Assembly: GCA_040183005.1 (NCBI GenBank)
Contig: JAMPIW010000007.1
Coordinates: forward strand, 124,001-188,000
From: Gammaproteobacteria bacterium
Lineage (GTDB): Bacteria > Pseudomonadota > Gammaproteobacteria > Ga0077554 > Ga007554
Direction of reading: 5' to 3'
DNA: 64,000 nucleotides
Made by a program: the position numbers and the translations under genes. Below the pieces are notes generated by a model. That model was not told where the DNA came from, did no database searches, and saw only the letters and a list, made by a program, of their open reading frames with translations. Below are positions 10,696-58,744 of this stretch, one piece after another (position 1 is the first letter of the stretch; every line of letters begins with the position of its first letter).

Positions 10696-12061
10696 CATGA
10701 GCCTGAGCGAGGGCATGGGTGAGATATTGCTCAGGCGGCGCGATGTTGGGTTTTGTTAATCAATTGAAAGAGCGTTGTCCGTGCCTCGTTGAGGCGTTGG
10801 GCGGCCTCATTATCGCTGCATTCCGTGGCCATTGCATCCGGTTTTTCCAGAGTGATTCCCGGGACGAGATGCTCTTCCACCTTCGGTAGGGAGCGCAGTT
10901 TCTCATAGGGTGTCATCATATCCTGATAACGGTAGCGCTTGCGTATCCGTCCCTTCTTGTCCGTGTACTCTGTTGGAAAGTGACAGGGACGGTGGAAGTT
11001 CAGGTAAGGCGACAGCACCTCGATGGTGAACTCATTCACCCGGCTGGCGAAGTGCTGCGGGATATGGCTGTAACCCAGGTGCTTGCGTACCGTCGACGCA
11101 TTCTTGCTTTCTGCCAGCGCATTGTCGTTGGTCTGGCGCGAGCGTGATTTGGTCTGCTCGATGCGCAGCTTCTCCAGCAGTTCTGCTACCTTGTGATTGA
11201 TGTACTCCGATCCGTTATCGCTGTGAAACCCGCGAATTATAAAGGGAAACGCTGCCATCATGGCTGCCAGCACCGGCAGCAGGAATGCCTCGCTAATTTT
11301 CTCCACGGCACAGATCGCCTGACACTGGGTGACCTCATCCACCGCATTGATCAGATACACCCCTTTGATCCCGTCCAGGTCGCCCTGATGCACACTGTCG
11401 ACGCGTAGGTATCCGGGGGCACCGCCAGGCGCGGGCTTGCGCCGCTCGCCAATGTTGATCCTGGTCGGGCGGGTCTTGTCGAACGACCCGCGCACCGATT
11501 GATAGGTTTTATGCTGGCGCAGATTGTACAGGTGGCCGTTGGAAATGCCCGCCAGGCGCGTGTAACGGGCATCCCCATGCACCTTGCACGCCCGCTCACA
11601 CAGCTTGCGGGTGGTAGTGCCGGCGAGGGTGCCATGCAGGGCATCCATCTGCGCCAACAGGCGGATGTCTTCTGCCGTATAGCGCCGCACAAACGGCACG
11701 GTCGGCGCACGGCGCCGGTCCTGGATGTTCCCGCCGTCGGTGAACTGCGTAATGCAGCGCGCCACCTGGGCACGGGAAAACCCCGTCACCTTGCGCAGGT
11801 ACTGCCGCAGCAGGCCTTTGTCGGCACGCTTGCAGCGCGTGTAACCAAACAGCCGGAGCGTGTCGGCCATCCAGCTGTAGGCTTTATTGCGATCCGTCAA
11901 TGTAAACGAAATGGACTCGTTGCCCGACACAAAGGCGCGTACCTGTGTCAGCGTTTGTAATCCTTGGGTATGCAATGTCACGATCATGCCTCCATGATCC
12001 CAACTTTTGCCCCGCCAGGCTCATCTCACGGTGGAAATACACCCCTTCGTTCAGGCTCATG
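10696..12061 (-). mobile_element. insertion sequence with DDE transposase
   Basis: A 1.37-kb element lies between radA and gshA and contains one transposase gene on the minus strand. The ends carry imperfect 18-bp terminal inverted repeats: CATGAGCCTGAGCGAGGG at 10696-10713 and the complement of CATGAGCCTGAACGAAGG at 12044-12061 (16 of 18 match). Similarity continues inward (GTGAGAT and GTTGGG blocks), so the true ends could extend a few bases either way, perhaps to a CCAAT on each side. No clear target-site duplication is visible. The IS family was not assigned. Confidence 0.75.
10731..11987 (-). CDS. IS transposase with rve/integrase-core DDE domain
   Basis: The 418-residue protein has an N-terminal helix-turn-helix region (about 45-80, GLLRQYLRKVTGFSRAQV) and an integrase-core catalytic domain. 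The DDE residues are visible as D197 (RVDSVHQGD), D257 (FHSDNGSEY) and E293 (NALAESKNAS), giving the DD(35)E spacing. The reading frame is intact, so it may be active. This resembles IS481- or IS3-type catalytic cores, but the family is not certain. The stop codon lies inside the left inverted-repeat region, which is common in compact IS elements. Confidence 0.88.
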   Translation of the reverse strand: MIVTLHTQGLQTLTQVRAFVSGNESISFTLTDRNKAYSWMADTLRLFGYTRCKRADKGLLRQYLRKVTGFSRAQVARCITQFTDGGNIQDRRRAPTVPFVRRYTAEDIRLLAQMDALHGTLAGTTTRKLCERACKVHGDARYTRLAGISNGHLYNLRQHKTYQSVRGSFDKTRPTRINIGERRKPAPGGAPGYLRVDSVHQGDLDGIKGVYLINAVDEVTQCQAICAVEKISEAFLLPVLAAMMAAFPFIIRGFHSDNGSEYINHKVAELLEKLRIEQTKSRSRQTNDNALAESKNASTVRKHLGYSHIPQHFASRVNEFTIEVLSPYLNFHRPCHFPTEYTDKKGRIRKRYRYQDMMTPYEKLRSLPKVEEHLVPGITLEKPDAMATECSDNEAAQRLNEARTTLFQLINKTQHRAA

Positions 12062-36382: not shown

Positions 36383-37576
36383 TTACAAATGTTGTGCCAG
36401 ACATTCCTTGGTGTCGCGCGCTATCAATAACTCTTCATCTGCTGGAATGACATAAACCGCCACTTGCGATGTGTTGGCTGAAATGCAGGCTTCCGAGGTG
36501 CCCGTTACCGCCGCATTGGTGGCCTTGTCCATCACCAGTCCGCACCATTCCATGCCGGTACAGATGCGTTCCCGGATGAGCGGTGCGTGTTCGCCGATGC
36601 CGCCACTAAAGACGATGGCGTCGGCGCCGCCCAGTACCGCCAGATAGGCGCCGAGGTATTTACGCGCGCGGTGGCAGAAGGCGTCAATCGCAAGTTTTGC
36701 GCCGCTGTGGCCTTGTGCCTCCAGCCTTAACAATTCGCGCATGTCGGCGCTGGTGTCGGACATGCCCAGCAGTCCCGCGCGTTGATTCAGCCCTACACGT
36801 AGTTGTTCGATACTTAGCCGTTCAGCGAGATACAACAGAGCGCCAGGATCAATATCGCCACAGCGTGTAGCCATGATCAGCCCCTCCAGCGGCGTGAAAC
36901 CCATGCTGGTTTCCACTGCCGTTCCGCCACGGATTGCCGCAACGGAACAGCCTTGGCCGAGTTGCACGGTAATCACACGGCTGGTTTTGGCGTCTGTTGT
37001 GCTTATCTCGTGATACCGTTGGTAAAGATAGCGATGCGCGATGCCATGAAAGCCATAGCGCTTGATGCCATAGTCATGTGTCCATTTATACGGAAGGGCA
37101 TAACAGCTCACATGGTCCGGTAGGGCATGAAAAAATGCAGTATCAAACACCGCGACCATCGGGATATCCGGTGACAAAGATGTCTGGCAGGCGCGGATGA
37201 CTTGCACGGCAAGGGGATTGTGTAGGGGTGCCAGAGAATTTAATGATTCGATCTCCGTTACGACGCTTTCGCTAACGCACACCGGAGCACTAAAGATATC
37301 TCCGCCATGCACTACGCGATGACCTATGGCTGTCAGAGTATGCAGAAGTGTTTTATCTTTCAGCCAGTTCAATATCCAGCGGGTGCCATCGTGGTGATTG
37401 CGGATGGCTGCGCAAGCGTCGCCGGGCCTGCCATCGATAACCCATGTGCAGCGCGCCTGCTCACCAAATGCGCTGATCATCCCGCGTGCCAGTGCCTTTA
37501 ACTCGCCCGATGCTGCTGTTTCAAAAAATTGAAATTTGAGTGACGAGCTACCGCTGTTGAAAACCAGGATGGACAT
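36383..37576 (-). CDS. ackA: acetate kinase
   Basis: AckA interconverts acetyl phosphate and acetate with ATP. The 397-residue protein has the N-terminal VFNSGSSSLKFQ motif, GHRVVHGG, the catalytic region VFDTAFFHALPD, and the FSGGIGEHAP motif. I chose the ATG at 37576 because MSILVFNSGSSS matches the family start; a longer frame adds 26 non-conserved residues and would cross a hairpin repeat. No pta gene is adjacent, which is less usual. It could work with Pta encoded elsewhere or with xylulose-5-phosphate phosphoketolase. It is convergent with the copper genes. Confidence 0.94.
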   Translation of the reverse strand: MSILVFNSGSSSLKFQFFETAASGELKALARGMISAFGEQARCTWVIDGRPGDACAAIRNHHDGTRWILNWLKDKTLLHTLTAIGHRVVHGGDIFSAPVCVSESVVTEIESLNSLAPLHNPLAVQVIRACQTSLSPDIPMVAVFDTAFFHALPDHVSCYALPYKWTHDYGIKRYGFHGIAHRYLYQRYHEISTTDAKTSRVITVQLGQGCSVAAIRGGTAVETSMGFTPLEGLIMATRCGDIDPGALLYLAERLSIEQLRVGLNQRAGLLGMSDTSADMRELLRLEAQGHSGAKLAIDAFCHRARKYLGAYLAVLGGADAIVFSGGIGEHAPLIRERICTGMEWCGLVMDKATNAAVTGTSEACISANTSQVAVYVIPADEELLIARDTKECLAQHL

Positions 37577-37637
37577 GGATGATCCTAAAAATGGCAGTTG
37601 ACTGCTTTTTTTGGGGCGGCTAGCAAGATGTTTTAAA

Positions 37638-37656
37638 GGGTGCGTGGGACGCACCC
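37638..37656. repeat. GGTGCGT/ACGCACC hairpin repeat, copy 2 (short)
   Basis: The hairpin GGGTGCGTGGGACGCACCC lies between ackA and the GGDEF gene. TTTTAAA precedes it and CTACAAAA follows. A GGAATAA stretch 34 bp further on recalls the flank of the longer copies, so this seems a diverged or truncated member. Confidence 0.7.
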
Positions 37657-37696: not shown

Positions 37697-38503
37697 TTAT
37701 AGCGATTGGTAGGCGCGGTGCAACAGTTTGTTCGTGTCGTCACCTTTGATCCAGCCCGCCACCCCGCAGCGTGCTTCCAGGCTGATGGATCGCCCATCGG
37801 CCCCGGTTATTTGTAGTTCCGCGAGGCGTAGCTGGAGTTTTTTGGTCAGCTCGACGGCAGCGGCCTCCGCTGTTTCCGGCAAAATGAGCAGAAACTCGTC
37901 GGTGTCCATGCGCCCGATCATATCAACCCAGCGCATCTGATCCTTGAGAAATTGACTGACAGCCATCATGGCACGGTCGGCGCTGGAATCCCCGTGGATA
38001 GCGTCAAGCTGTGCGAGGTTGGCGATTTTCAACACGATCACTGCGAGGGGATTTTCGTAGCGCCGGCTGCGTGAAATTTGCGGTTCAAGGCTCTGCAGAA
38101 GGGCACGGCGATTCGGCAGGGACGTGAGAGGGTCATTGAGGGTGTAGAGCGCCAATTCTTCCGTCAACCGTTCTTGTGCCTGTTGTTGCGAGGTGATGTC
38201 CGCGTAAAAAAGAACGTCGCCCAATCCGTCGCCCAGCGATTGCCGCCAGCATTTCAGCCAGCATTCTGGCTGCGAGCCTGTCGCCGGAAGGTGCATGACC
38301 TCCTGGGGGTCGAACAGGCATTTTTTGGCATTTTGTGACAGGCTTGATGAGGTACGGGATAGCTGATCTTCCTGGATGCCCAGAAGGCTCTGGAGCGTTT
38401 TATTGATGGATAACACTTGCCCTTTATTATCCAGAACCAAAACGCCAAGAGGGGCATTCTCAAGGATAGCCAGCGCAGTGGCTGATTCAAGGCGCTTTAT
38501 CAT
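37697..38503 (-). CDS. PAS-GGDEF protein with degenerate active site
   Basis: The 268-residue soluble protein has an N-terminal PAS-like sensor (about 8-110) and a GGDEF domain (about 120-268, with the conserved DPLTSLPNRR at 124-133). The active-site GGDEF is DTDEF at 200-204. The usual first metal-binding Asp region reads VLKIANLAQLD, so that Asp is also lost. Diguanylate cyclase activity is therefore unlikely. The inhibitory-site motif RxxD is intact as RWVD at 191-194, with the proper five-residue spacing, so it may bind c-di-GMP as a receptor. The start at 38503 is preferred for its GGAG site. It is divergent from adenylate cyclase. Confidence 0.85.
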   Translation of the reverse strand: MIKRLESATALAILENAPLGVLVLDNKGQVLSINKTLQSLLGIQEDQLSRTSSSLSQNAKKCLFDPQEVMHLPATGSQPECWLKCWRQSLGDGLGDVLFYADITSQQQAQERLTEELALYTLNDPLTSLPNRRALLQSLEPQISRSRRYENPLAVIVLKIANLAQLDAIHGDSSADRAMMAVSQFLKDQMRWVDMIGRMDTDEFLLILPETAEAAAVELTKKLQLRLAELQITGADGRSISLEARCGVAGWIKGDDTNKLLHRAYQSL

Positions 38504-38625
38504 AGTTAAATTCTCCATGGTTGTTCATTCCCATACAGCCAGGCCAACGAGACGTGTCTGTAAAGTGTGTATATCGGACGTTTATGGTAAAGCTTTAGTA
38601 ACCCGATGGGTATCGGCGGAATATT

Positions 38626-41574
38626 ATGTTTCCATGTCTTCTGCCGCTATTATCTCGGGGTGTGACCAATGATGCAAAAAATATGATTCTCGGGGCCAGG
38701 CTGGCTGACATAAACGCTATCAAGCGGCGCTTTCTGGCGCTCAATCGCGAGCGTTTGCAGCGTGCGCAGTCGTCTCTGCGTGAACGGCAGCGCGATTTTC
38801 TCGATCTGTTGCCCCTGTTGTTTCATGTTAATCATATGCTGCTGCCTGGATTTGTTTCCAATAATACCCCGATGGGGGTCTCCGATTATTCTCCGGACAA
38901 GCGCACCCTTGAGGCCGCGAAGAAGATTTCCAGGAATTTCTCATACAAGCGCAAGGCGTTGCCACGCTTTGAGATTCTATCGCTTTTTCTGATGGGCAGC
39001 AGTGGCACTATTGCCTACTCGAAGAAAAGCGATTTCGATATCTGGATTTGCCACCCCGCCAACATTAAAGAAGAGCTGCTTGATGAGCTTCGCAGGAAGG
39101 CGGAGGCCATCGAGAAATGGGCGGCCAGCCTTGATCTTGAAGTCCATTTCTTTCTTATGGATCCTTCGTCCTTCAGGTCCGGCAAGCAGAGTGAGTTATC
39201 CAAGGAAGGCAGCGGCAGTGCACAGCATCATTTGCTGCTGGAAGAATTTTATCGCACAGGATTGTTGTTGGCGGGGCGTTATCCTGCATGGTGGCTGGTG
39301 CCTCCTGATAAAGAGCAAGAGTATGACAGTTATCTTGAGGAATTGACGAATAGTTTCGCGGTACGGGAAGCGGAATATGTTGATTTTGGCGGGATTCCTC
39401 TAATACCGGCAGAGGAGTTTTTTGGTGCCGCCTTATGGCAGCTTTTCAAGGGCATCGATTCGCCCTATAAATCTGTGCTCAAGCTCCTGCTGATGGAGGT
39501 TTATGCCCATGAATATCCTGCGAGCGATTTGCTTTGCCAGCGCTTCAAAAAGGCAATTTATGCAGGGGAAATTTCTCTTGACGCGCTTGATCCCTATATC
39601 ATGCTGTATTACAAAATTGAGGAACACCTGAAAAAGACGTCCGAGAAGGAACGTCTTGAGTTGTTCAGACGGTGTTTTTATTTCAAAGTCAACGAGCGGC
39701 TCAGTACGCCAGATTCACCTCATCAGAGCAGCTGGCGGCGCGATCTCATCAAGAGTCTGGCGCATGCCTGGGATTGGGATCCTGCTTACCTCGAAACGCT
39801 TGATGCACGTCTCTCATGGAAAATAAACCGCGTGCTCAGGGAACGCAGAGTACTGACCAGCGAATTGACGCAAAGTTACCGGTTTTTGTCTGATTTCGCT
39901 CATGAGCATGCCCAGTTGGCGCTGATAAATCAAAAGGATTTGAATATCCTTGGCCGTAAATTGTATGCGGCTTTTGAACGCAAGGCAGGCAAGGTCGAGA
40001 TAGTCAATCGTGGCATTTCCCAGGGATTGTGGGAGAGCCATCTCACCTTTGTTCATAAAAAGGAAGGCGATGAACAGGATGGTTGGGCGCTGTTCATCGC
40101 GCCGCACAATGAAGTCGAGCACGGTGGTTTTCAGCCCATCAAACGGGCGCACAGTGTTGTTGATCTTGTGGCCTGGTGTTATTTCAACGATATGGTGAAT
40201 GATGCGACAGTGATTGGCCTGCATGCCCAGGATGCTGGCCTTACGCTTCGGGAGATCAAGTTGCTGATTAGCGCCCTCCAAAATTTATTCCCGAACACCC
40301 AGTCTTCGGAAACGAGCATGGAAGATCTTTCCAAGGCGTCACGGATGGAGAAGGCTGCCCTCTTTATTAATTTGGGTGTTGATCCAATGGCAATACACAC
40401 TCGCCAAGGTATGCACTACACCAGCAACAAGACCGATGCGCTGAGTTACGGCGGCGTGGGGGAAAATCTTGCGCTGACATTTGATATGGTGACTTTGACA
40501 AGCTGGAGGGAAGCGTTGACATTCAGGTATGTGGGGCTCAATGGGTTGATGAACTGTTTGTGTGAATATGTGCGCTGGATGCCGCCTTCCATGGGCATAT
40601 TACCTCCTCCTGTTTCGATTCAGTGTTTTTCCGCGAATCATGGCGTCACTATTGGGAAAAGAATAGAAGAATTGTTTCGTAACATTGTCGATGGTTTTTA
40701 TCGAAGTGCCCATGCTGCCTCTCTGCGCTATATTCTGTCGGTTGAAAATATTTATTACCTGTTGTGGAAAGAAAATGACGCACTACGTTACAAACGCATT
40801 GAGTCATATGACGATTTGCTGGTTAATCTGGCCGCGGAGCAGCCGTCGTTCAGTCATCTTGAAATAGATCAGCACGCCCTCCACGGCACACCTCTCCCGC
40901 AGATTTTCGCTACTAATAAGCCAAATATGATCCAGGTTTTTTACCGGATGGATGGGGGCTGCGCCGATGTTTATGTGATTGATGAACGTGGTTCGCTTTA
41001 CTATCAACGCATGCTCCATTGCGAGAGTATGGCGCTAATCAATCAGTACACCTTGTTCTTTGATTCGGTATTGAGACGGCAACATCTCCTGGGGACGAGT
41101 GAGAGACAGGGGATGGATGGTTTGATTGGTGTTGAGTTTTATCATATCAGCAAGGATGGGATGGGTAAGTCCGTGCTGGTGAGAAATGATCCTATCCGTA
41201 AAAAGGGGTTGAAAAACTATTACAACATGCAGATCATTGTTGATAAAGTAAAGGATGGTAAGCTGGCCTTTACCATTTATTGCGGTGACGAGGAATTTAC
41301 TTCTCTCGAATACGGCAACGGCTTGTTCCGTGAAGTTGCCAGATATGTGATGGCGAATCGGCAAAGCGGCTTGCGCTACCCCATCTACATTACGGATATC
41401 AATCTTCCCTCAGCGATGCTTGGCGAGGAAGCGGGGCGGCGGCAAACCATCCATTTTCTGAATTATAAACGGCAGATCGAAGACAAACTCAATGAGGCGC
41501 TTCATGAGCTAGACCGGCAGGACGGGCAGGCTCAAGTCGCCAGTATGCGCCGTAACCACTCGCCCATGTCGTGA
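38626..41574 (+). CDS. cyaA: class I adenylate cyclase
   Basis: The enzyme makes cAMP from ATP. The frame encodes 982 residues, longer than E. coli CyaA (848). The N-terminal catalytic region aligns well by eye with enterobacterial CyaA: LLPGFVSNNTPMGV, the nucleotidyltransferase motif MGSSGTIAYSKKSDFDIWICH, WAASLDLEVHFFL, and EEFFGAALWQLFKGIDSPYKSVLK. The C-terminal regulatory half is more divergent. The ATG at 38626 has a GGCGGA site; an ATG at 38683 would align better with the E. coli start, so the true start is uncertain. No crp gene is in the window. The 3' end overlaps the convergent esterase gene by 43 bp. Confidence 0.92.
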   Translation: MFPCLLPLLSRGVTNDAKNMILGARLADINAIKRRFLALNRERLQRAQSSLRERQRDFLDLLPLLFHVNHMLLPGFVSNNTPMGVSDYSPDKRTLEAAKKISRNFSYKRKALPRFEILSLFLMGSSGTIAYSKKSDFDIWICHPANIKEELLDELRRKAEAIEKWAASLDLEVHFFLMDPSSFRSGKQSELSKEGSGSAQHHLLLEEFYRTGLLLAGRYPAWWLVPPDKEQEYDSYLEELTNSFAVREAEYVDFGGIPLIPAEEFFGAALWQLFKGIDSPYKSVLKLLLMEVYAHEYPASDLLCQRFKKAIYAGEISLDALDPYIMLYYKIEEHLKKTSEKERLELFRRCFYFKVNERLSTPDSPHQSSWRRDLIKSLAHAWDWDPAYLETLDARLSWKINRVLRERRVLTSELTQSYRFLSDFAHEHAQLALINQKDLNILGRKLYAAFERKAGKVEIVNRGISQGLWESHLTFVHKKEGDEQDGWALFIAPHNEVEHGGFQPIKRAHSVVDLVAWCYFNDMVNDATVIGLHAQDAGLTLREIKLLISALQNLFPNTQSSETSMEDLSKASRMEKAALFINLGVDPMAIHTRQGMHYTSNKTDALSYGGVGENLALTFDMVTLTSWREALTFRYVGLNGLMNCLCEYVRWMPPSMGILPPPVSIQCFSANHGVTIGKRIEELFRNIVDGFYRSAHAASLRYILSVENIYYLLWKENDALRYKRIESYDDLLVNLAAEQPSFSHLEIDQHALHGTPLPQIFATNKPNMIQVFYRMDGGCADVYVIDERGSLYYQRMLHCESMALINQYTLFFDSVLRRQHLLGTSERQGMDGLIGVEFYHISKDGMGKSVLVRNDPIRKKGLKNYYNMQIIVDKVKDGKLAFTIYCGDEEFTSLEYGNGLFREVARYVMANRQSGLRYPIYITDINLPSAMLGEEAGRRQTIHFLNYKRQIEDKLNEALHELDRQDGQAQVASMRRNHSPMS

Positions 41575-48482: not shown

Positions 48483-48549
48483 TTAATCGCCCCGACTTTC
48501 TTGTTGCTGTTATAATTAGCAAACTTTATCAATTGGTTGCGTGATTTTT

Positions 48550-49068
48550 ATGGATGCCCAGAAAAGCCGTTCGCTGAATTTGCTAGGTAGTCTGATTTTT
48601 TGGAGCCGCTGGCTGCAGGCGCCTCTGTATCTTGGGTTGATTGTTGCCCAAGGTGTCTATGTCTTTCATTTCATGGTTGAACTTGAGCATCTGGTCGTCA
48701 AGACCGCGACCATCGGCGAGGCCGAGATCATGCTGGTGGTACTCGGTCTGATCGACGTGGTGATGATCGCCAACCTATTGATCATGGTGATCATCGGCGG
48801 TTATGAGACTTTCGTTTCCAGGCTCTATAAAGATGATCACCCGGATCATCCCGAGTGGCTGAGCCACGTTAATGCCAGCACCATGAAGATCAAGCTGTCC
48901 ATGGCGCTGATCGGCATTTCTTCCATCCACCTGCTCAAAACCTTTATCAACGCCCCGCACCTGGATGAAAAGACCATGCTCTGGCAGGTCGTGATTCACC
49001 TCACCTTCGTCGCCTCCGCCGTGGCAATGGCGTATACCGACAAATTGATGCAGAAGCCGGCGCACTAG
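48550..49068 (+). CDS. UPF0114 family inner-membrane protein (YqhA-like)
   Basis: The 172-residue protein has three or four transmembrane helices: about 18-40, 58-80 ([29 protein letters not shown]) and 135-155. These and the [20 protein letters not shown] segment are characteristic of the TIGR00645/UPF0114 family. The function is unknown. The ATG at 48550 is preferred over a GTG 9 bp upstream. It stands alone on the plus strand between pdxA and pilG. Confidence 0.88.
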
Positions 49069-49459
49069 CAGCTGTCGTTACTCATAGCCAAGACGCCTGG
49101 GATGGCGCTACTTGGCGATAACCCTAAAAACGACTTTTTTCTCCCCCTGCTTTTAGTCCTGCCCCGATTTCAGGCGTATTTTGCGCTTATTCCATTCTGA
49201 AGCAATAGTGGAATCGTAGGGGGCGTCCCACGCCCCCACATAATTATTGGCGCTTTCAAATCTCTCCCAATTCTCTGAAAAAGCGCTTTTCCCCAATTGC
49301 CATTTCATTTCCCGGCCTTCCTTAAAGTCTATTTTTTTTCTGCCGATACAGTCACCAGAGAAACTGTGTACGTTTCCAGGTTCAAGGTCTTTGCGGGAAA
49401 GGTTAAACACTGGATGGCGTCCCAGAACTATAAGAGTGAGTAGATGAGGGTATAAAGAT
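49069..49459. other. 391-bp intergenic region before pilG
   Basis: It contains the inverted copy of the GGTGCGT-type hairpin repeat (49185-49260). A 143-codon minus-strand frame runs through the repeat but has no recognisable content. No promoter with good spacing was found for pilG; an AGGG site precedes its start. Confidence 0.55.
49185..49260. repeat. GGTGCGT/ACGCACC-type hairpin repeat, copy 3 (inverted)
   Basis: A 76-bp element matching the complement of the copy at 25858-25934. The hairpin here is GGGGGCGTCCCACGCCCCC, so a G-C pair replaces the T-A pair of copy 1 on both arms. Confidence 0.85.
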
Positions 49460-49942
49460 ATGGCGGGAAATGGCATCGTGGAACACGATTGTTCTGGCAT
49501 CAAGGTGATGGTGATTGATGACAGCAAAACAATACGCCGCACAGCGGAAATTATTTTGCAAAAAGCCGGGTGCGAGGTCTTCACCGCGACAGATGGTTTT
49601 GAGTCGCTAGCGCTGATTGCCGATCACAAGCCGGACATCATCTTTGTTGACATCATGATGCCGCGTCTGGATGGTTATCAGACCTGCGCGCTCATCAAGC
49701 ATAACCTCGTCTTTCAAAATACACCGGTCATCATGCTATCCAGTAAGGATGGCCTGTTTGACAAGGCGCGGGGACGCATCGTTGGCGCGGAAGAATATGT
49801 AACCAAGCCTTTTACCAGCGACGAATTGTTGGGTGCTATTAAGCGTCATGTGCGTCGGAAAAATACGGAGAGTAGTGCGTTCGATGGGGATATTCCTTTT
49901 GAAAACGAACAGGTCGTGCTCCCCGTGAAAGGGGTAATGTGA
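49460..49942 (+). CDS. pilG: twitching motility response regulator PilG
   Basis: PilG is a CheY-like receiver of the Pil-Chp system that controls type IV pilus extension. The 160-residue protein has the acidic pair in VIDDSKTIRR, the phospho-acceptor Asp in IIFVDIMMPRLDG and the conserved Lys in YVTKPFTSDELLG. The receiver is followed by a short C-terminal tail. It is the first gene of a six-gene cluster and is separated from pilH by 142 bp. In Pseudomonas PilG also promotes cAMP synthesis. Confidence 0.92.
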   Translation: MAGNGIVEHDCSGIKVMVIDDSKTIRRTAEIILQKAGCEVFTATDGFESLALIADHKPDIIFVDIMMPRLDGYQTCALIKHNLVFQNTPVIMLSSKDGLFDKARGRIVGAEEYVTKPFTSDELLGAIKRHVRRKNTESSAFDGDIPFENEQVVLPVKGVM

Positions 49943-50084
49943 CATTGTGCCACCCGTAAAAGGGTGCAATTCCTGATCGTCATCTCATTGTGCTCTTCAC
50001 GGGCATTACGGTGATTACGGGTGCTTTGAAAATTCAAGGATTATTTTTTAGAACTATCCAACAGCGTGTGACAGGAGATTTGAT

Positions 50085-50450
50085 ATGGCTCGTATATTGA
50101 TTGTGGATGATTCACCGACGGAAATGCATGTGCTGAAAACCATGCTGGAAAAGAATGGCCACCAGACGCTGGGTGCCAGTAATGCGGAAGAGGGTATCGC
50201 CAAGTCAAAATCGGAAAAACCGGATCTTATTTTGATGGACGTCGTCATGCCTGGCACCAATGGTTTTCAGGCCACGCGCCAGATTACCAAGGATCCTGAA
50301 ACCGCCTCTATTCCAGTCATTATCGTCACAACTAAAGATCAGGAAACCGATAAGGTGTGGGGGCTGCGCCAGGGTGCGAAGGATTATCTTACCAAACCGG
50401 TGGATGAGTCTGCGCTGATCGTAAAAATCAAGGCGGCGATGGGGGGGTGA
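50085..50450 (+). CDS. pilH: twitching motility response regulator PilH
   Basis: The 121-residue single receiver domain has the acidic pair in ILIVDDSPTEMHVLK, the phospho-acceptor Asp in LILMDVVMPGTNGFQATR and the Lys in DYLTKPVDE. PilH acts on pilus retraction or as a phosphate sink in the Pil-Chp pathway. AGGAG precedes the start. The CheW-like gene starts 4 bp later, so pilH and pilI are coupled. Confidence 0.94.
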   Translation: MARILIVDDSPTEMHVLKTMLEKNGHQTLGASNAEEGIAKSKSEKPDLILMDVVMPGTNGFQATRQITKDPETASIPVIIVTTKDQETDKVWGLRQGAKDYLTKPVDESALIVKIKAAMGG

Positions 50451-50454
50451 TCTC

Positions 50455-51006
50455 ATGTTGCCGCTAGTCGCCAGTTACACCCCCTATGAAATGCTGCGCG
50501 AGATTGAGCGGCGCAGTCTTGCGTTGGATGCTGAGTTGCCCAAGGAAGAGAAACGTAAAGCGACATGGAACGGGGTGGCTTTTGTCTTGGATCGTAACCT
50601 GCTTCTGGCACCGCTGCATGATGTTCAGGAAGTGCTGGATTGTCCACCGCTCACGATGGTGCCGCGAACCAAAAGTTGGTTGCGGGGTGTTGCCAATGTG
50701 CGTGGGCGTTTGCTGCCGGTCATTGACCTGAATGTCTACCTGGGCGGCGGTGCAACGCCGTTGCGTGGCAGCAACCGGATTTTGATTGTGCAATACGGGG
50801 TATTGTCGGCGGGGCTGTTGGTTGATGAAGTGCTGGGGCAACGGCATTTTCTGGACGAAGACCGCTGCCCGCTACCGACGCTGGAAGCGGGGGGTGTAAT
50901 GGACTATGTGCGGCCCTCTGCTTATCACAAGGACGGTGACGTTTGGTTGGTGTTTGATATGCATAAATTAGTGGCATCACAGCAGTTTCTGCAGGCGGCA
51001 GAGTAA
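50455..51006 (+). CDS. pilI: CheW-like adaptor PilI
   Basis: The 183-residue CheW-domain protein couples the receptor PilJ to the kinase ChpA. Conserved pieces are TWNGVAFVLDRNLLLAPLHDVQEVL, VPRTKSWLRGVANVRGRLLPVIDLNVYLGG and LLVDEVLGQRHF. The RGVANVRGRLLPVIDL motif is the core of the CheW domain. It lies between pilH and pilJ as in Pseudomonas. Confidence 0.93.
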   Translation: MLPLVASYTPYEMLREIERRSLALDAELPKEEKRKATWNGVAFVLDRNLLLAPLHDVQEVLDCPPLTMVPRTKSWLRGVANVRGRLLPVIDLNVYLGGGATPLRGSNRILIVQYGVLSAGLLVDEVLGQRHFLDEDRCPLPTLEAGGVMDYVRPSAYHKDGDVWLVFDMHKLVASQQFLQAAE

Positions 51007-51048
51007 TCGGGCGTTCCCGGGGATTTTTTAATCGTAGAGGATTTTGGT

Positions 51049-52815
51049 ATGAAGATAAGCGGGTTCAAGAACGCAAGCGGGCTTATGAATATAAGCATGC
51101 TCAAGAACATGGGTGTAAACGCCTTGTTGTGGTTGCTGGTGGGGTTGATGTCGTTGGCGGTGGTGAGCATTGGGGCGTTCGGGTTTTACAGCACTTACAA
51201 AGAGCAGGTGTTTGCCGTGGAAACGGTGGATGAAGGCGAATTCGATATCAAGATGCTCGATCTGGTGCAGGAAGCAGCCATCTCGCTGAATAAAGAGCTG
51301 GAGGCATGGAAGAATATCCTGCTCAGAGGTGAGAAGTCCGAGGATTATAAAAGATATTTGGGGATTTTTGAGAAGGAAGGAGCCCAGGCAGACTCAAAAC
51401 TGAAAGCGGCAAAGCAACTGATGGCGAATCGTGCCGGGCTGGATGTTGCGCTGGTTGACGCAGTGCTAAAGAAGCATGAGGAACAAATTGCGGCATATCG
51501 TGAGGCACTGAAGAGCTATGACCCCTCTCGTCCTTTTGAAACCGCTCACACGGTGGATGATTCTATTCATGGTTTGTTCGATGCCACGTGGGAGAAGATG
51601 GATGTCCTCAACAATAAAATAGACGCATACATTCCTCAGCGTCTTGAGGGTAATAGAAAAGACGCACAAGAATCATTCAATAGCAGCCGTGTAACTTTTA
51701 TCGCGGTGGTGATTCTGGCATTGGTGTTGACGTTCGCTCTCGCCTTCCCTATCAGAAAGGGCGTCAACCAGGCCATCAATAAAGTGAATACCCTGCTTGC
51801 CGACGCAGAACAGCAGAATCGCCGCAATCAGGACGCTATTTTGCGCTTGCTGGATGAGGTGGCTGATCTTGCCGACGGCGATCTGACCAAAAAGCCATTA
51901 GTGACGGAGGATTTCACCGGCGCTATCGCTGACTCATTGGGCTACGCTATTGACACGCTGCGCGGGCTGGTGGGATCTATCAACACCACGGCGGTGAAGG
52001 TGGCTTCCGCCGCAACGGAAACACAATCGACTGCGCTGCGTCTCACAGAGGCCAGCGACCAGCAGGCGCAGGAAATTGAGACTGCAGGCGTGGCCATTTA
52101 CGAAATGACGAAATCCAGTGAGCGCGTCTCGGCGAATGCCGCGCAGTCAACCGCGGTGGCGCAACAGTCTGTGGATATTGCAAAGAAGGGTGCGGAGACA
52201 GTGCAGGGCACCATTCAGGGTATGGAATCCATTCGCGAACAGATTCAGGAAACTTCGAAACGTATCAAGCGTCTAGGTGAAAGCTCCCAGGAGATCGGTG
52301 AGATCGTGGGCCTGATCAATGACATTGCCGATCAGACCAATATTCTTGCCTTGAATGCCTCCATTCAGGCGGCTATGGCAGGCGAGGCGGGGCGCGGCTT
52401 TTCGGTGGTGGCGGATGAGGTGCAACGCCTGTCCGAGCGCGTGGCCAACTCCACCAAGCAGATTGCAACCTTGGTGAAAACCATTCAAACCGATACCAAT
52501 GAGGCGGTGATTTCCATGGAAAAGAGCACCTCCGGCGTGGTGGCCGGTACACAGCTGGCACAGGGTGCAGGTAAGGCGCTCGAAGAGATTGAGGGCGTGT
52601 CCGGGAACCTTTCCCGCTTGATTGGAGACATTGCTGAAGCAGCCAATCAGCAGACCATGATGGCGAGCACGGTATCCAGCACCATGAAGATGATTCAGGA
52701 AGTGACCACGCAGACATCGCAAGGTACCAAGCAGGCCGCAGCATCCATCGGTGAGTTGACAGGGATGGCGGGCGAATTGCGGAAATCGGTGGCCGGTTTC
52801 AAACTGCCCACGTGA
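51049..52815 (+). CDS. pilJ: methyl-accepting chemotaxis protein PilJ
   Basis: PilJ is the receptor of the Pil-Chp array and is thought to sense pilus or surface contact. The 588-residue protein has two transmembrane segments (about 24-47 and 220-240) bounding a helical periplasmic domain of about 170 residues. A HAMP-like region follows, then a long cytoplasmic signalling coiled coil with the hairpin tip [29 protein letters not shown]. It ends [10 protein letters not shown], the typical PilJ ending. The periplasmic part is shorter than the two-PilJ-domain version of Pseudomonas, so the ligand range may differ. Confidence 0.92.
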
Positions 52816-52872
52816 TCTCGGCCGGGTGCAGTGTCCTGCCTCTGGAGTTAGGGCATACTTGATTACAAAAAG

Positions 52873-55800
52873 GTGAGCGGCATGATATCGGCGGAGCATA
52901 TGGATTATGGCGCCCTGAAGTGGGTAAAGGGTGAGATTGAGGTAAACCTGCAACAGGCGCAACAGGCGTTGGAGGTATTCCAGGAACATCCTGCCGAGGC
53001 CGCACAGATCGACTTGTGTATCACCTTGTTGCATCAGGTATGTGGCGCGCTGCAAATGCTGGATCTTACAGAGGCATTTGCTCTCGCCAGGGAAATGGAG
53101 CAGGCAGTTCGAGTTCTTGCCAAGGATGCAGACCGGCGCAAGGGCTGGGTCTATAGCACCCTGATGCGCGCCATGTCAGAATTGCCACTCTATCTGACGG
53201 GGCTGCAAGAAGCTCAGGCAGATCGCCCTCAGGTCTTTTTGCCGTTGATCAACGATTTGCGGGTCGCCACCGGTGCCTCGGTGCTCTCCGAGAGCATGGT
53301 GTTTGGTCCGGCGGTTATCCCTACTGTTTCTCCACACAGCCCCGACATGCAAGACACGCTGGCGCGGGATGTCAAGGCGTTGGCCCATCAGCTACGTCCG
53401 GTGTATCAGGCGGGCTTGCTGGTGTGGTACCGTGATACCGGCAATAAAGCGGCATTGCGGCGGCTATTGCAGGTGGCTGTGCAGTTGCAGCAAGTGTGTC
53501 CTGAAGAAGGCCTGTGGAGAGTAGCCGAGGCGTTGATTGAACGGTTGCTGGCTGAAACACTTGAACCCAACAATGCCATCAAGTTGCTGCTGGGACAAGT
53601 GGAGCGCCAGATCGGACGGGTCATGGCAGCGGGAGCGGAGGAGTTGCGCGATCACCCACCCGCTGACCTTATAAAAAACCTGCTCTTTTATATTGCCTAT
53701 GCCGACACGCAAAGCGAGCAGACCAGAGGTATGGCTGTTTCTGCCGGTACCGATATGTTACAGAATACTCGCGATGGAGCGAACGTTGCCAACCCCGGCT
53801 TGCTGGAAATTGCCGCAGGTGCAGTCAAGGATGAACTGGCATGGGCCAAGACCAAGTTGGACAGCTTCGCGCGTGCCGGTGGACGTCATACCCCGCAAGA
53901 ATTGCGTGTTATAGCCGGCGTCTTGGCCAGGGTGTCAAATACCCTGGATATGCTGGGCCGCTGGGAGCTGCGTCAGCGCGTGCGGCAGCAGACTGGCGTG
54001 CTCGATGCGATGCTGGAAGGGGGCGCTATCCTCAACGACCCCCGCCTTATGGAAGTGGCCAACGCCTTGCTATATGTGGAATCGCTGTTGCGCGATGTCC
54101 AGATGCCGGATGCGGCGGTTTCTGAAAGCGCCTCCGGCAAGCCCGCGGGCAACCCGGGAGCTGTAAAAGCCGTGACCGCGGAGTACCACGATTTGTGCCG
54201 CGCTGTTATCCGCGAGGTAATGGTTGATATGGGTAAGGTGAAGGACGACATCATTGCCCTTGCCAAAGCGTCCGATCAGCATGAGTTGATCAGTTCCGCG
54301 CCCGCCGTGCTGCATCGTATTGTTGGTAGTTTGACGATGCTGTCCCTGAAGCGCCCGGCGGACTTGTTGAAAGCAGGTTATCACTATATCCGGCGCGAGT
54401 TGATCGAGCGCAAGATCTCGCCATCCCTTGAGGCGCTAGATACCTTGGCCGACATGTTGACCGGCATCGAATTTTACCTGGATACCCTGGCCGAAAGTCA
54501 GATGAATCTTGATTCCCTGCTGGATCTGGCTGAAAACAATGCGGTTACTTTAGGTTATCCGGTTGATGAAGTGGATGACTACCCGCTGGAGGCTGCGATC
54601 AAAGTTGCGGCGCCAGCTGAACCTACTATTGTTGAAATCATTTCTTTGGCAGAAAGCGCTGATGAGGTTATCTCGCAGCAACCGGATCCAGACAGTATCG
54701 TCCTGGACATGGACAGGGCCGATCTAGCTGAAAATCCCGTTATGGCTGGTGCTATCGAGACAGTTCAACTATTACCTGTCGCGCGCACACAGGAGGAAGA
54801 AGACGCAGACGAGGTGATGGAGGTTTTTATCGAGGAAGTAGGCGAGGAGCTGACTTCTATCGCACAACATTATCCTCGGTGGAAGCAGGATACGAACAAT
54901 AATGAGCCGCTCAAGAATATTCGCCGCTCATTCCATACTCTGAAAGGCAGCGGTAGGCTGGTGGGTGCGAATGTGATTGGCGAGGTTGCCTGGGCCATTG
55001 AGCATTTGTTGAATAAAGTGATTGATGGCGAAGTCCCCGTCACGCCGCCACTGTTCGATGTGGTGGAGCAAGCCCAAGCGGTTATGCCTGGGCTGCTGCA
55101 ACAATTTCAGCGTATTAAAACAAAGATGGATATCGACACGGATATCCAGGCATTGATAGACCAGGCACAGGCGCTAACTTCCCCCGCTGCGAGTCTTAAA
55201 GAGCATGTTAATAGCGCTCCCGATGCGGCGATGGCAATACAGCAGGAGGCCGCTGCAGCTGCCCCTTCCGTGGAGCAGGAGGCAGTGATTGACCCTGTGC
55301 TGCTGGAGATCTTCAGGGCTGAATCCAAGGGGCGCTTGGAGGAGGTGCGGCGGTTTATTGATGTCTGCGGCCAGTCCAAAAAAGGTCAGGTGACGGAACC
55401 GCTGATGCGCAATTTGCATACCCTGCAAGGCAGCGCGCATATGGCGGGCTTTAAGGATATCGGCGATCTCGGTAGCTTGTTCGAAAAGCTGGTCAATGCG
55501 ATTCACCGTAATCACGGTGAGGTGGCGGAGGCGGAGTTACTCGCTTTAGGTGATTTTAGCGAAGTGTTCCATGACATGCTGCACTTGGAGAATCCGCTCG
55601 CGGAGTCCCCGGAAAAGACAGCGGCACTGGAGAAAATTTCTTTCCTGACGCGCCGCGTACAGCACTTCCTTGATGCTGCTGTTATCGAAACCGGCACTTC
55701 TATGGACACCGATGCGCATAATGCCTTGAATGATGGTATATCGGGCAATGACAACGATGAAGTGCGCGAGATTTTTCTCGAAGAGGCGGCGGAAATTCTG

Positions 55801-58260
55801 GGTAATACGGAATCCCTGCTGCAAAGCTGGATTCACGCGCCCGACGTGCTCGGGCCGGTTGCGAGGCTGGAGCGCGAACTGCATACCTTTAAAGGCGGCG
55901 CACGCATGGCGGGAATCAGCGCCATGGGTGATCTTAGCCATAGCTTCGAATCTTTACTGAGCGCCATCGTGGCCGGTGATGTTGCCGCTACTGATGAGAT
56001 TTTCCAGACATTCGAGCAAGCCCATGACCGGCTGCAAACGATGCTGGAACCGGCGCTGTTGCACTTGCCGGTGGCTGCGGCTCCCGATCTGATTGCCAGG
56101 ATGGAAGCATTGGCCAGGCATGAAAGCATTGAGCCGGCTCAATCGCATGATTTATCGCTGGCGGGGGATGAAGACGAGAGCATTATTCTTTCCTCTGCAA
56201 TGCCGGAAGCAGTTACCGGCGGTGCGCAGGCAGAGGCAGTTTTCGATCCTGCTCCAGAGGACGATGCCCCGTTGCCTGTTGCAGATTCGATAGATATCCC
56301 CGCCTCAATGGTGACAGAAGAACCCTTGGCAGATGCTACTACTGCGCCGGATGGCACCCCGGCAGAGCCGGCATGGCTGATCCCCAAGCCATCCACCGAA
56401 CAAATCCGTGTGCGTGCCGATCTGCTGGACAATCTGGTGAACCAGGCAGGAGAGTTGAGCATTTCCCGTTCTCGCCTGGAGCAACAGATTAATGGCTTCC
56501 ACACGGGCTTGACGGAAATGAAGCAGACGGTTGTCCGCTTGCGTGATCAACTGCGCAAGCTCGATATGGAAACCGAGGCGCAAATTCTGTTCCGTCACCA
56601 GGAAGCAGGATTTCAGGGCCAGGATTTCGATCCGCTGGAATTTGATCGTTTCTCGATGTTGCAACAGTTGTCGCGCAGCATGATGGAATCAACCGCCGAC
56701 CTTGCCAGTATTCAGGATCAACTGGAAAAGCAGGCTGGCGATTCGGAAACCGTGCTGCTGCAACAGGCGCGTCTCAATACCGAGTTGCAGGAAGGCATGA
56801 TGCGCACCCGCATGTTACCCTTCGCGGGCATGGCATCACGCCTGCGTCGGGTAGTGCGGCAAACGGCGCGAGAGGTGGGAAAGCCGATTGAATTGCAGGT
56901 CGTCGGTGAAGACCTTGAAATGGACCGCACCGTGCTCGATAGAATGGCGGGTCCCCTGGAGCACATGGTACGCAACGCTGTCGACCACGGTGTTGAAGAT
57001 GCAGCCACCCGGCGCGCTCAGGGCAAGCCCGAGATGGGCGTGATTACCCTGCAACTTGCCAAGGAAGGCACAGAAATGGTGCTACTGCTGGCTGACGACG
57101 GGCGCGGCCTGGATCTGGCGGCAATCCGCCGCAAGGCCATTGAACGTGGTCTGCTGGGCGAAAACACGGTGATTGATGACTACAATCTGATGCAGTTCGT
57201 GCTCGAATCAGGCTTCAGCACTGCCGCGCAAGTTACGCAGATTTCCGGGCGCGGTGTGGGTATGGATGTGGTGAATAACGAGATCAAACAGCTTGGCGGC
57301 AGCCTGCAGATTGAATCCGTCGCGGGCAGTGGCAGCCGGTTCACAGTACGCCTGCCTGTGGCGTTGTCCATCACCCAGGCGCTGATCGTCGGAGCAGGCG
57401 AGCACATGTACGCCATCCCTCACTCCAGTATCGATGGTGTAATGCGCGTCAGCTACGAAATGCTCATGCAGGCACATGAGCGTGGTGCTTCCACATTTGA
57501 ATACGGCGGTGCCCATTACGCACTGCAATCGTTAAGCGGGCTGTTGAGCGGTGGCGTGTCTCCCCTTCCTGAAAAAGAGGCCCGGCATCTGTTGTTGATG
57601 GTGCATGGCAGCGGCCAGCGCGCTGCGTTGTGGGTGAATTCGGTCATGGAAAATCGCGAAATCGTGGTCAAATCCTTGGGGCCGCAGTTGAGTACGGTGC
57701 GCGGTATCATGGGCGCTACCATCATGGGTGATGGTGGTGTGGTATTGATTCTGGATATCCCCGTATTGCTGCGTCTGGGTTTGATTGCCGAGCAGTCACA
57801 GGGGTTGACGCCAGAGACGAAAGTTGCGATACAAGGCGCCGCGCCGCCATCGGGAAGCGGGATTATCAACGTCATGGTGGTGGACGATTCAATTACCGTG
57901 CGCAAAGTTACCTCGCGCCTGCTGGAACGCAATCAGATGCGGGTGTTCACCGCCAAAGACGGGGTGGATGCGCTGGAATCGCTACAGCATCAGATACCCG
58001 ATGTCATGCTGTTGGATATCGAAATGCCGCGCATGGATGGTTATGAGCTGGCCTCGGTGATTCGCAATGATGAACGCCTCAAACACATCCCCATTATCAT
58101 GATCACCTCGCGTACCGGCGAAAAACATCGCGAGCACGCCAGGCGCATCGGCGTGAACGAGTATCTGGGCAAGCCCTACCAGGAAAATGAATTGCTCGAT
58201 CATATTCGCGCACTGGCCGGCGGCCAGGCAGCGAATAACGACTTGAGCATGGCAGTCTAA
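52873..58260 (+). CDS. chpA: hybrid sensor kinase ChpA (PilL) with multiple Hpt domains
   Basis: This 1795-residue protein is the central histidine kinase of the Pil-Chp system. I see six Hpt-like modules. Five have a histidine: H54 (TLLHQVCGALQML), H481 (AVLHRIVGSLTML), H688 (SFHTLKGSGRLVG), H849 (NLHTLQGSAHMAG) and H1004 (ELHTFKGGARMAG). The second module has Ala352 in place of His. Then come a CheA dimerisation region, an ATPase domain (HMVRNAVDHGVED, DDGRGLDL, GRGVGMDVV), a CheW domain and a C-terminal receiver with phospho-acceptor D1715 (MLLDIEMPRMDGYEL). It is shorter than Pseudomonas ChpA (about 2470), mostly through fewer Hpt modules. Confidence 0.94.
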   Translation: MSGMISAEHMDYGALKWVKGEIEVNLQQAQQALEVFQEHPAEAAQIDLCITLLHQVCGALQMLDLTEAFALAREMEQAVRVLAKDADRRKGWVYSTLMRAMSELPLYLTGLQEAQADRPQVFLPLINDLRVATGASVLSESMVFGPAVIPTVSPHSPDMQDTLARDVKALAHQLRPVYQAGLLVWYRDTGNKAALRRLLQVAVQLQQVCPEEGLWRVAEALIERLLAETLEPNNAIKLLLGQVERQIGRVMAAGAEELRDHPPADLIKNLLFYIAYADTQSEQTRGMAVSAGTDMLQNTRDGANVANPGLLEIAAGAVKDELAWAKTKLDSFARAGGRHTPQELRVIAGVLARVSNTLDMLGRWELRQRVRQQTGVLDAMLEGGAILNDPRLMEVANALLYVESLLRDVQMPDAAVSESASGKPAGNPGAVKAVTAEYHDLCRAVIREVMVDMGKVKDDIIALAKASDQHELISSAPAVLHRIVGSLTMLSLKRPADLLKAGYHYIRRELIERKISPSLEALDTLADMLTGIEFYLDTLAESQMNLDSLLDLAENNAVTLGYPVDEVDDYPLEAAIKVAAPAEPTIVEIISLAESADEVISQQPDPDSIVLDMDRADLAENPVMAGAIETVQLLPVARTQEEEDADEVMEVFIEEVGEELTSIAQHYPRWKQDTNNNEPLKNIRRSFHTLKGSGRLVGANVIGEVAWAIEHLLNKVIDGEVPVTPPLFDVVEQAQAVMPGLLQQFQRIKTKMDIDTDIQALIDQAQALTSPAASLKEHVNSAPDAAMAIQQEAAAAAPSVEQEAVIDPVLLEIFRAESKGRLEEVRRFIDVCGQSKKGQVTEPLMRNLHTLQGSAHMAGFKDIGDLGSLFEKLVNAIHRNHGEVAEAELLALGDFSEVFHDMLHLENPLAESPEKTAALEKISFLTRRVQHFLDAAVIETGTSMDTDAHNALNDGISGNDNDEVREIFLEEAAEILGNTESLLQSWIHAPDVLGPVARLERELHTFKGGARMAGISAMGDLSHSFESLLSAIVAGDVAATDEIFQTFEQAHDRLQTMLEPALLHLPVAAAPDLIARMEALARHESIEPAQSHDLSLAGDEDESIILSSAMPEAVTGGAQAEAVFDPAPEDDAPLPVADSIDIPASMVTEEPLADATTAPDGTPAEPAWLIPKPSTEQIRVRADLLDNLVNQAGELSISRSRLEQQINGFHTGLTEMKQTVVRLRDQLRKLDMETEAQILFRHQEAGFQGQDFDPLEFDRFSMLQQLSRSMMESTADLASIQDQLEKQAGDSETVLLQQARLNTELQEGMMRTRMLPFAGMASRLRRVVRQTAREVGKPIELQVVGEDLEMDRTVLDRMAGPLEHMVRNAVDHGVEDAATRRAQGKPEMGVITLQLAKEGTEMVLLLADDGRGLDLAAIRRKAIERGLLGENTVIDDYNLMQFVLESGFSTAAQVTQISGRGVGMDVVNNEIKQLGGSLQIESVAGSGSRFTVRLPVALSITQALIVGAGEHMYAIPHSSIDGVMRVSYEMLMQAHERGASTFEYGGAHYALQSLSGLLSGGVSPLPEKEARHLLLMVHGSGQRAALWVNSVMENREIVVKSLGPQLSTVRGIMGATIMGDGGVVLILDIPVLLRLGLIAEQSQGLTPETKVAIQGAAPPSGSGIINVMVVDDSITVRKVTSRLLERNQMRVFTAKDGVDALESLQHQIPDVMLLDIEMPRMDGYELASVIRNDERLKHIPIIMITSRTGEKHREHARRIGVNEYLGKPYQENELLDHIRALAGGQAANNDLSMAV

Positions 58261-58273
58261 AAGGAGAGGACGG

Positions 58274-58744
58274 ATGGCTACAACATTAAATATGATTCAC
58301 AGCCTGTTGCTGCCGGTACATGGAAAAATGCTGCTGCCGCACGCCACAGTTGCGGAAGTCGTTCCCTATAGTGCCGCTGAACCGGTGCCGCATGCTCCAG
58401 TCTGGCTGGCAGGCATGCTGTCCTGGCGGGGCGCGCGCATCCCTCTGGTGTTTTTTGAGGGGGCTTGCGGAGATTCCTTGCCCGTCGCCGCGCCCGCTGA
58501 GCAAAAGATCGTTGTGTTGAAAACCTTGGGTGAAGACCCTGATCTGCCATTCATCGCCCTGGTGATGCAAGGTCTGCCGCGTGCCATCAAGGTGGACGCG
58601 GATGCCTTGAGCGCCGAGGCCGATGAGTCATCCGTTCCGCTGATCCTGAAACATATTCATATCAACGGGCAAGCTGCATACCTCCCCAATCTTGATGCCC
58701 TGGAAAACGCGATTAAAGCAGCGCTGCATACGGTTAATAATTAG
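58274..58744 (+). CDS. chpC: CheW-like protein ChpC
   Basis: The 156-residue CheW-type protein (MLLPHATVAEVVPYS, WLAGMLSWRGARIPLVFFE) corresponds to ChpC, the second adaptor of the Pil-Chp system. It follows chpA by 13 bp after an AAGGAGAGG ribosome-binding site. The gene order skips chpB, the methylesterase gene that lies between chpA and chpC in Pseudomonas. Confidence 0.88.
   Translation: MATTLNMIHSLLLPVHGKMLLPHATVAEVVPYSAAEPVPHAPVWLAGMLSWRGARIPLVFFEGACGDSLPVAAPAEQKIVVLKTLGEDPDLPFIALVMQGLPRAIKVDADALSAEADESSVPLILKHIHINGQAAYLPNLDALENAIKAALHTVNN

Follow-up and report, generated by a model that had tools for sequence, protein, structure and literature searches.

The window, a stretch of 64,000 nucleotides from a Gammaproteobacteria bacterium, carries a gene for a PAS-GGDEF protein with a degenerate active site, placed in divergent orientation to cyaA. 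The locus raises the question of whether such a protein would still read c-di-GMP and, if so, which process it serves.

Predicted product of the putative receptor gene

The gene (37697..38503, minus strand) encodes 268 amino acids when read from the conserved Met6, while its longest open reading frame (37697-38518, minus strand) gives 273 amino acids from the first ATG. The reading frame is real, and the start at 38503 chosen in the preliminary description is probably better than 38518, since Met6 was invariant in a first alignment of 16 orthologs. A Pfam scan detected a GGDEF domain (E 4e-26) and a PAS domain (E 3e-6). The PAS region spans 38198..38470 on the minus strand (residues ~17-107, of which Pfam covers 17-60 and the structure model supplies the remainder), and the GGDEF-fold domain, supported by Pfam, the model and fold matches, spans 37703..38137 on the same strand (residues 128-272). 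The AlphaFold2 model had a mean pLDDT of 93. Fold comparison placed its C-terminal domain closest to GGDEF structures with bound c-di-GMP, among them PleD (2v0n; Z 22.1, rmsd 1.6 over 149) and 3ign (Z 21.8). The next gene on the same strand encodes acetate kinase (36383-37654, minus strand) and is separated by a gap of only ~40 bases, for which reason the two genes may be co-transcribed.

The translation bore out the residues listed in the preliminary description. The active site reads DTDEF (residues 205-209; 37892..37906, minus strand), with both active-site glycines absent, and Lys164 occupies the position of the first metal-binding Asp in the segment VLKIANL (38027..38029, minus strand). 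The canonical C-terminal tail of cyclases is AKxxGRN; it is absent from this protein, which ends in RAYQSL. On sequence grounds an active diguanylate cyclase was ruled out, as GG[DE]EF, the metal Asp and AKxxGRN are all missing. The primary I-site RWVD (residues 196-199; 37922..37933, minus strand) lies exactly five residues before the active-site motif (RWVD-MIGRM-DTDEF), which is the standard spacing. Further upstream, in SRSRRY (residues 149-154; 38057..38074, minus strand), R153 aligns with R198 of WspR, the secondary I-site arginine; in WspR, R242 and R198 are described as holding c-di-GMP at the I-site, with R198 coming from a neighbouring GGDEF domain (PMC2270323).

Assignment to known classes of degenerate GGDEF proteins was also considered. 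The FimX and LapD type (GGDEF-EAL) was ruled out, as the Pfam scan of the protein gave no EAL match and the LapD model scored 53 bits against a cut-off of 1020; SiaD identity was discarded on a score of 87 bits with the NCBIfam equivalog, below its cut-off of 290. The PelD type is a membrane-anchored GAF-GGDEF protein encoded among pel genes; it was rejected because the Pfam matches are to PAS and to neither GAF nor a PelD model, and the gene order here is cyaA/ackA. PelD and FimX, proposed earlier for comparison, are less near to this protein than soluble I-site receptors such as CdgA of Bdellovibrio, whose architecture it resembles.

A family with a lost active site and a conserved I-site

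Of 56 genomes first searched with the single protein, 17 had relatives, and the combination of degenerate active site and I-site was common to all of them in the first alignment. With a profile built from 16 members (A1), a search of 369 genomes of the class then gave 85 matches (E 1e-40 or better) distributed over 83 genomes, the receptor itself scoring ~395 bits vs at most 106 bits for the other GGDEF proteins of its genome. A tree was computed in a quick LG+G4 search; several of its forks are open, and the tool warned of long branches that meet within the crp clade. In this tree 84 of the 85 matches grouped as a single clade (SH-aLRT 100) that excludes three canonical GGDEF proteins from the genome of the window. 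The remaining match (G228_L258), a GGEEF protein barely over the profile cut-off, fell outside this clade and was dropped, leaving a family of 84 members in 82 of the 369 sampled genomes. Two genomes hold two members each: in G126 (L221, L259) one adjoins crp and the other lies elsewhere, and in G165 (L219, L235) one adjoins cyaA and the other is on a short contig. The phylum-wide sample, in which the family was found in 2 of 378 genomes, was of little use for its range; the named loci recovered by motif pattern were mostly from Gammaproteobacteria MAGs (Chromatiales, Ectothiorhodospiraceae, Thiohalobacter, Thiogranum and others).

RWxD, the residues R152, R153 and Y154, and also E215 and T216, were kept in all 84 members, GG[DE]EF and an AKxxGRN-like tail in none. 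Because the search pattern itself contains RW[VAT]D, the motif-pattern loci (L123-L202) were left out of these I-site counts, where their use would be circular, and their use was confined to the structure alignment and to comparing the cyclases. Purifying selection acts on the gene: omega is ~0.2, and each of the 10 pairs drawn from five close genomes had a dN/dS between 0.11 and 0.23. In view of this and of the lost active site and kept I-site in 84/84 members, the pattern is not one of chance or decay. RRY and LPET are also present in the alignment of 3ign, an ordinary active cyclase, which makes their retention partly ancestral; what counts is that this family holds them constant while its active site drifts. 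That the protein would be a c-di-GMP receptor rather than a cyclase, as first proposed, is strongly supported by this comparison and by the fold. The accompanying proposal of a redox or small-molecule input sensed by the PAS domain found no support, the aligned PAS part of the 84 members having no conserved His or Cys as a cofactor ligand and only P23, N39 and D107 exceeding 85% identity.

Linkage to cyaA

The divergent partner of the receptor gene, identified by Pfam, NCBIfam and the neighbour survey, is cyaA, encoding a class I adenylate cyclase (38626..41574, plus strand). Its true start is probably slightly downstream of 38626, the conserved part beginning at about residue 28, and only a short intergenic region (38504..38625) lies between the two genes. 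The preliminary description had overlooked the linkage of the receptor gene to cyaA and crp. Across the family, 53 of the 84 members lie directly upstream of cyaA (35 divergent and 18 tandem), in 27 families, with adjacency inside any one lineage being partly inherited. None of these 27 families shows both orientations, and the tree requires three changes between the divergent and the tandem arrangement.

The class I adenylate cyclase N domain (PF12633) was found in 106 of the 369 genomes. Among the 35 cyaA genomes lacking a profile match, three had a weaker member upstream of cyaA, with RWAD kept, and the other 32 had no GGDEF open reading frame upstream of cyaA; these 32 empty sites act as a control, indicating that ordinary GGDEF genes are not found in that position.

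Several more specific forms of this linkage were looked for. No fusion of receptor and cyclase genes was found at the examined loci; the frame length at G094 suggested one, but a TGA separates the receptor from the cyclase. A shared CRP operator was rejected for the 35 divergent pairs, where best-match counts for CRP sites were not clearly distinct from those of shuffled sequences. The cyclases were compared using 85 from cyaA-linked loci, 28 from receptor-less genomes and 9 from crp-linked genomes (28 of 31 R-minus loci passed the length filter, G014, of the 32 listed, was incomplete, and so were a few R-plus loci). This comparison gave no cyclase domain or clear motif tied to the presence of the receptor, and a CyaA docking motif was discarded, the column differences among the compared cyclases being only modest and confounded by kinship.

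Elsewhere in the window, about 8 kb beyond cyaA, there is a chemosensory cluster of the Pil-Chp kind (48541-58744, plus strand) with a receiver, CheW, an MCP, a large Hpt-CheA-type kinase and a CheW; the Pil-Chp system of Pseudomonas raises cAMP. An open reading frame at 10731-11987 (minus strand) resembles a transposase with an integrase core and, by eye, is IS481-like.

Co-occurrence with the cAMP machinery

The presence of the family was compared with that of cAMP genes by Fisher tests (n = 369) that ignore kinship and whose tables include the genome of the dropped G228 match. A class I cyclase was present in 71/83 genomes with a match vs 35/286 without, Crp in 82/83 vs 107/286, and any adenylate cyclase (class I or III) in 83/83 vs 167/286, indicating that the family accompanies the cAMP machinery. 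The 12 match genomes without a class I cyclase all have a class III enzyme, which implies that loss of class I does not always remove the receptor family. In the genome of the window the adenylate cyclase is of class I only, class III being absent.

Linkage to crp and the remaining members

Among the 85 profile matches, 32 were not beside cyaA, and at least 13 of these were beside crp. These members, at least 13/84, adjoin crp on the same strand in at least nine families, as read by eye and coded by hand (12 from coordinates and G034 from an open reading frame in L045), so that at least 66 of the 84 members lie beside cyaA or crp. The 13 crp-linked members and the second G126 copy form a sister clade of the cyaA-linked members (SH-aLRT 94, drawn open). 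An OsmC-like gene was seen by eye, in translated open reading frames, between the receptor gene and crp in L248, L249, L252, L254 and L045.

This second linkage lends some weight to the idea that the c-di-GMP-loaded receptor binds Crp instead of the cyclase and changes its activity, which would couple the two messengers at the reading step; the presence of Crp in all 12 match genomes devoid of a class I cyclase agrees with it, and in Shewanella cAMP-CRP is described as directly contacting the c-di-GMP effector BpfD (PMC8938473). We consider it unlikely, although it is the best of the alternatives, since most members, the one in the window included, adjoin cyaA, the crp-linked members are a separate clade, and the single Crp of this genome among the matches listed is encoded far from the receptor locus (C7:1853224).

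The other 18 members, among the matches listed, comprise 11 in genomes without a class I cyclase and seven in genomes with cyaA elsewhere, and some of them lie at contig ends. Seven loci that are not beside cyaA (L241, L245, L247, L250, L251, L253 and L225) have argH-like, carboxylesterase-like or lysA-like neighbours; their persistence suggests that cyaA was lost or relocated from an ancestral site. The survival of an argH or lysA neighbourhood in some members after cyaA has gone (gene names by eye), and the fact that known I-site receptors mostly act outside cAMP signalling, would also suit a generic c-di-GMP receptor with its target elsewhere, in surface attachment, pili or polysaccharide, its closeness to cyaA being inherited gene order. 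Two orientations, three switches and a second clade at crp are hard to obtain from passive order, and the co-occurrence with the cAMP machinery is strong, which makes this reading quite improbable. Least probable is that the I-site residues are kept for folding or a protein interface and c-di-GMP binding has been lost: conservation partly inherited from the parent subfamily, as with RRY and LPET, and the unusual Trp following the I-site Arg would fit, but every member has both c-di-GMP-contacting arginines and the Asp, whereas the active-site loop varies freely.

Comparison with known systems

Full-text searches of the open-access literature found no description of this receptor family or of its bond to cyaA and crp; degenerate GGDEF receptors as a kind are already known, and it is the subfamily and the bond that appear to be new. 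The closest likeness is to CdgA (Bd3125) of Bdellovibrio bacteriovorus, a dead GGDEF protein with RxxD reported to bind c-di-GMP (Kd ~2 uM) and to make none (PMC3271064). The receptor shares with it the GGDEF fold, a degenerate active site, an RxxD five residues upstream, the expected lack of cyclase activity and the putative receptor role. They differ in that binding was measured for CdgA and is predicted from sequence here, and in that CdgA acts at the cell pole during prey invasion, with no cAMP link in the excerpted text of that report (PMC3271064). WspR and PleD (3bre, 2v0n, 1w25) have the same fold, I-site arginines and Asp, but are described as active diguanylate cyclases in which the I-site serves product inhibition (PMC2270323). 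The receptor, by contrast, has lost the active site, the metal Asp and the phosphate-binding tail at the C-terminus, and it carries PAS where they have a receiver domain.

BpfD of Shewanella putrefaciens has a LapD-type GGDEF-EAL make-up, whereas the receptor has no EAL match. BpfD is a precedent for a direct coupling between effectors of c-di-GMP and of cAMP, although it is an inner-membrane protein and the excerpted account describes no I-site role for it (PMC8938473); contacts of Crp with LrbR and BpfD are also reported (PMC12415220). In Pseudomonas putida, FleQ represses cyaA and high c-di-GMP lowers cAMP, according to PMC8125075, so that c-di-GMP there controls cAMP via cyaA, as is proposed here; FleQ does so as a DNA-binding, transcriptional regulator, while the receptor has no DNA-binding domain.

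Proposed mechanism

On balance we favour a c-di-GMP receptor of the dead-GGDEF kind that would serve the cAMP pathway specifically, most likely by adjusting the output of CyaA when c-di-GMP fills its I-site. We infer that the protein would bind c-di-GMP at the I-site, dimerise upon binding and contact CyaA (or Crp). At high c-di-GMP, the intercalated ligand would occupy RWxD in one GGDEF domain and, in a second, the arginine of RRY, and this bridge would lock the dimer; the locked dimer would then alter its contact with the neighbouring class I cyclase and thereby the output of CyaA, most likely towards lower cAMP. An inhibitory direction is likely by analogy, given that in P. putida cAMP falls, via FleQ, when c-di-GMP is high. 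Eleven members of the cyaA-linked clade reside in genomes without a class I cyclase, with class III present, and CyaA cannot be the sole target there. More tentatively, the family may represent direct post-translational control of a class I adenylate cyclase by a dedicated c-di-GMP receptor, with one origin in the Gammaproteobacteria and a split into cyaA-linked and crp-linked forms.

A 2024 review calls knowledge of cross-regulation extremely limited (PMC11139211). The receptor probably lets one of the two signals, c-di-GMP or cAMP, control the other. Dead GGDEF proteins tied by gene order to cyaA or crp in at least 36 families are a candidate for the missing direct link between c-di-GMP and cAMP, and a possible input for class I cyclases that operate outside the PTS context of E. 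coli.
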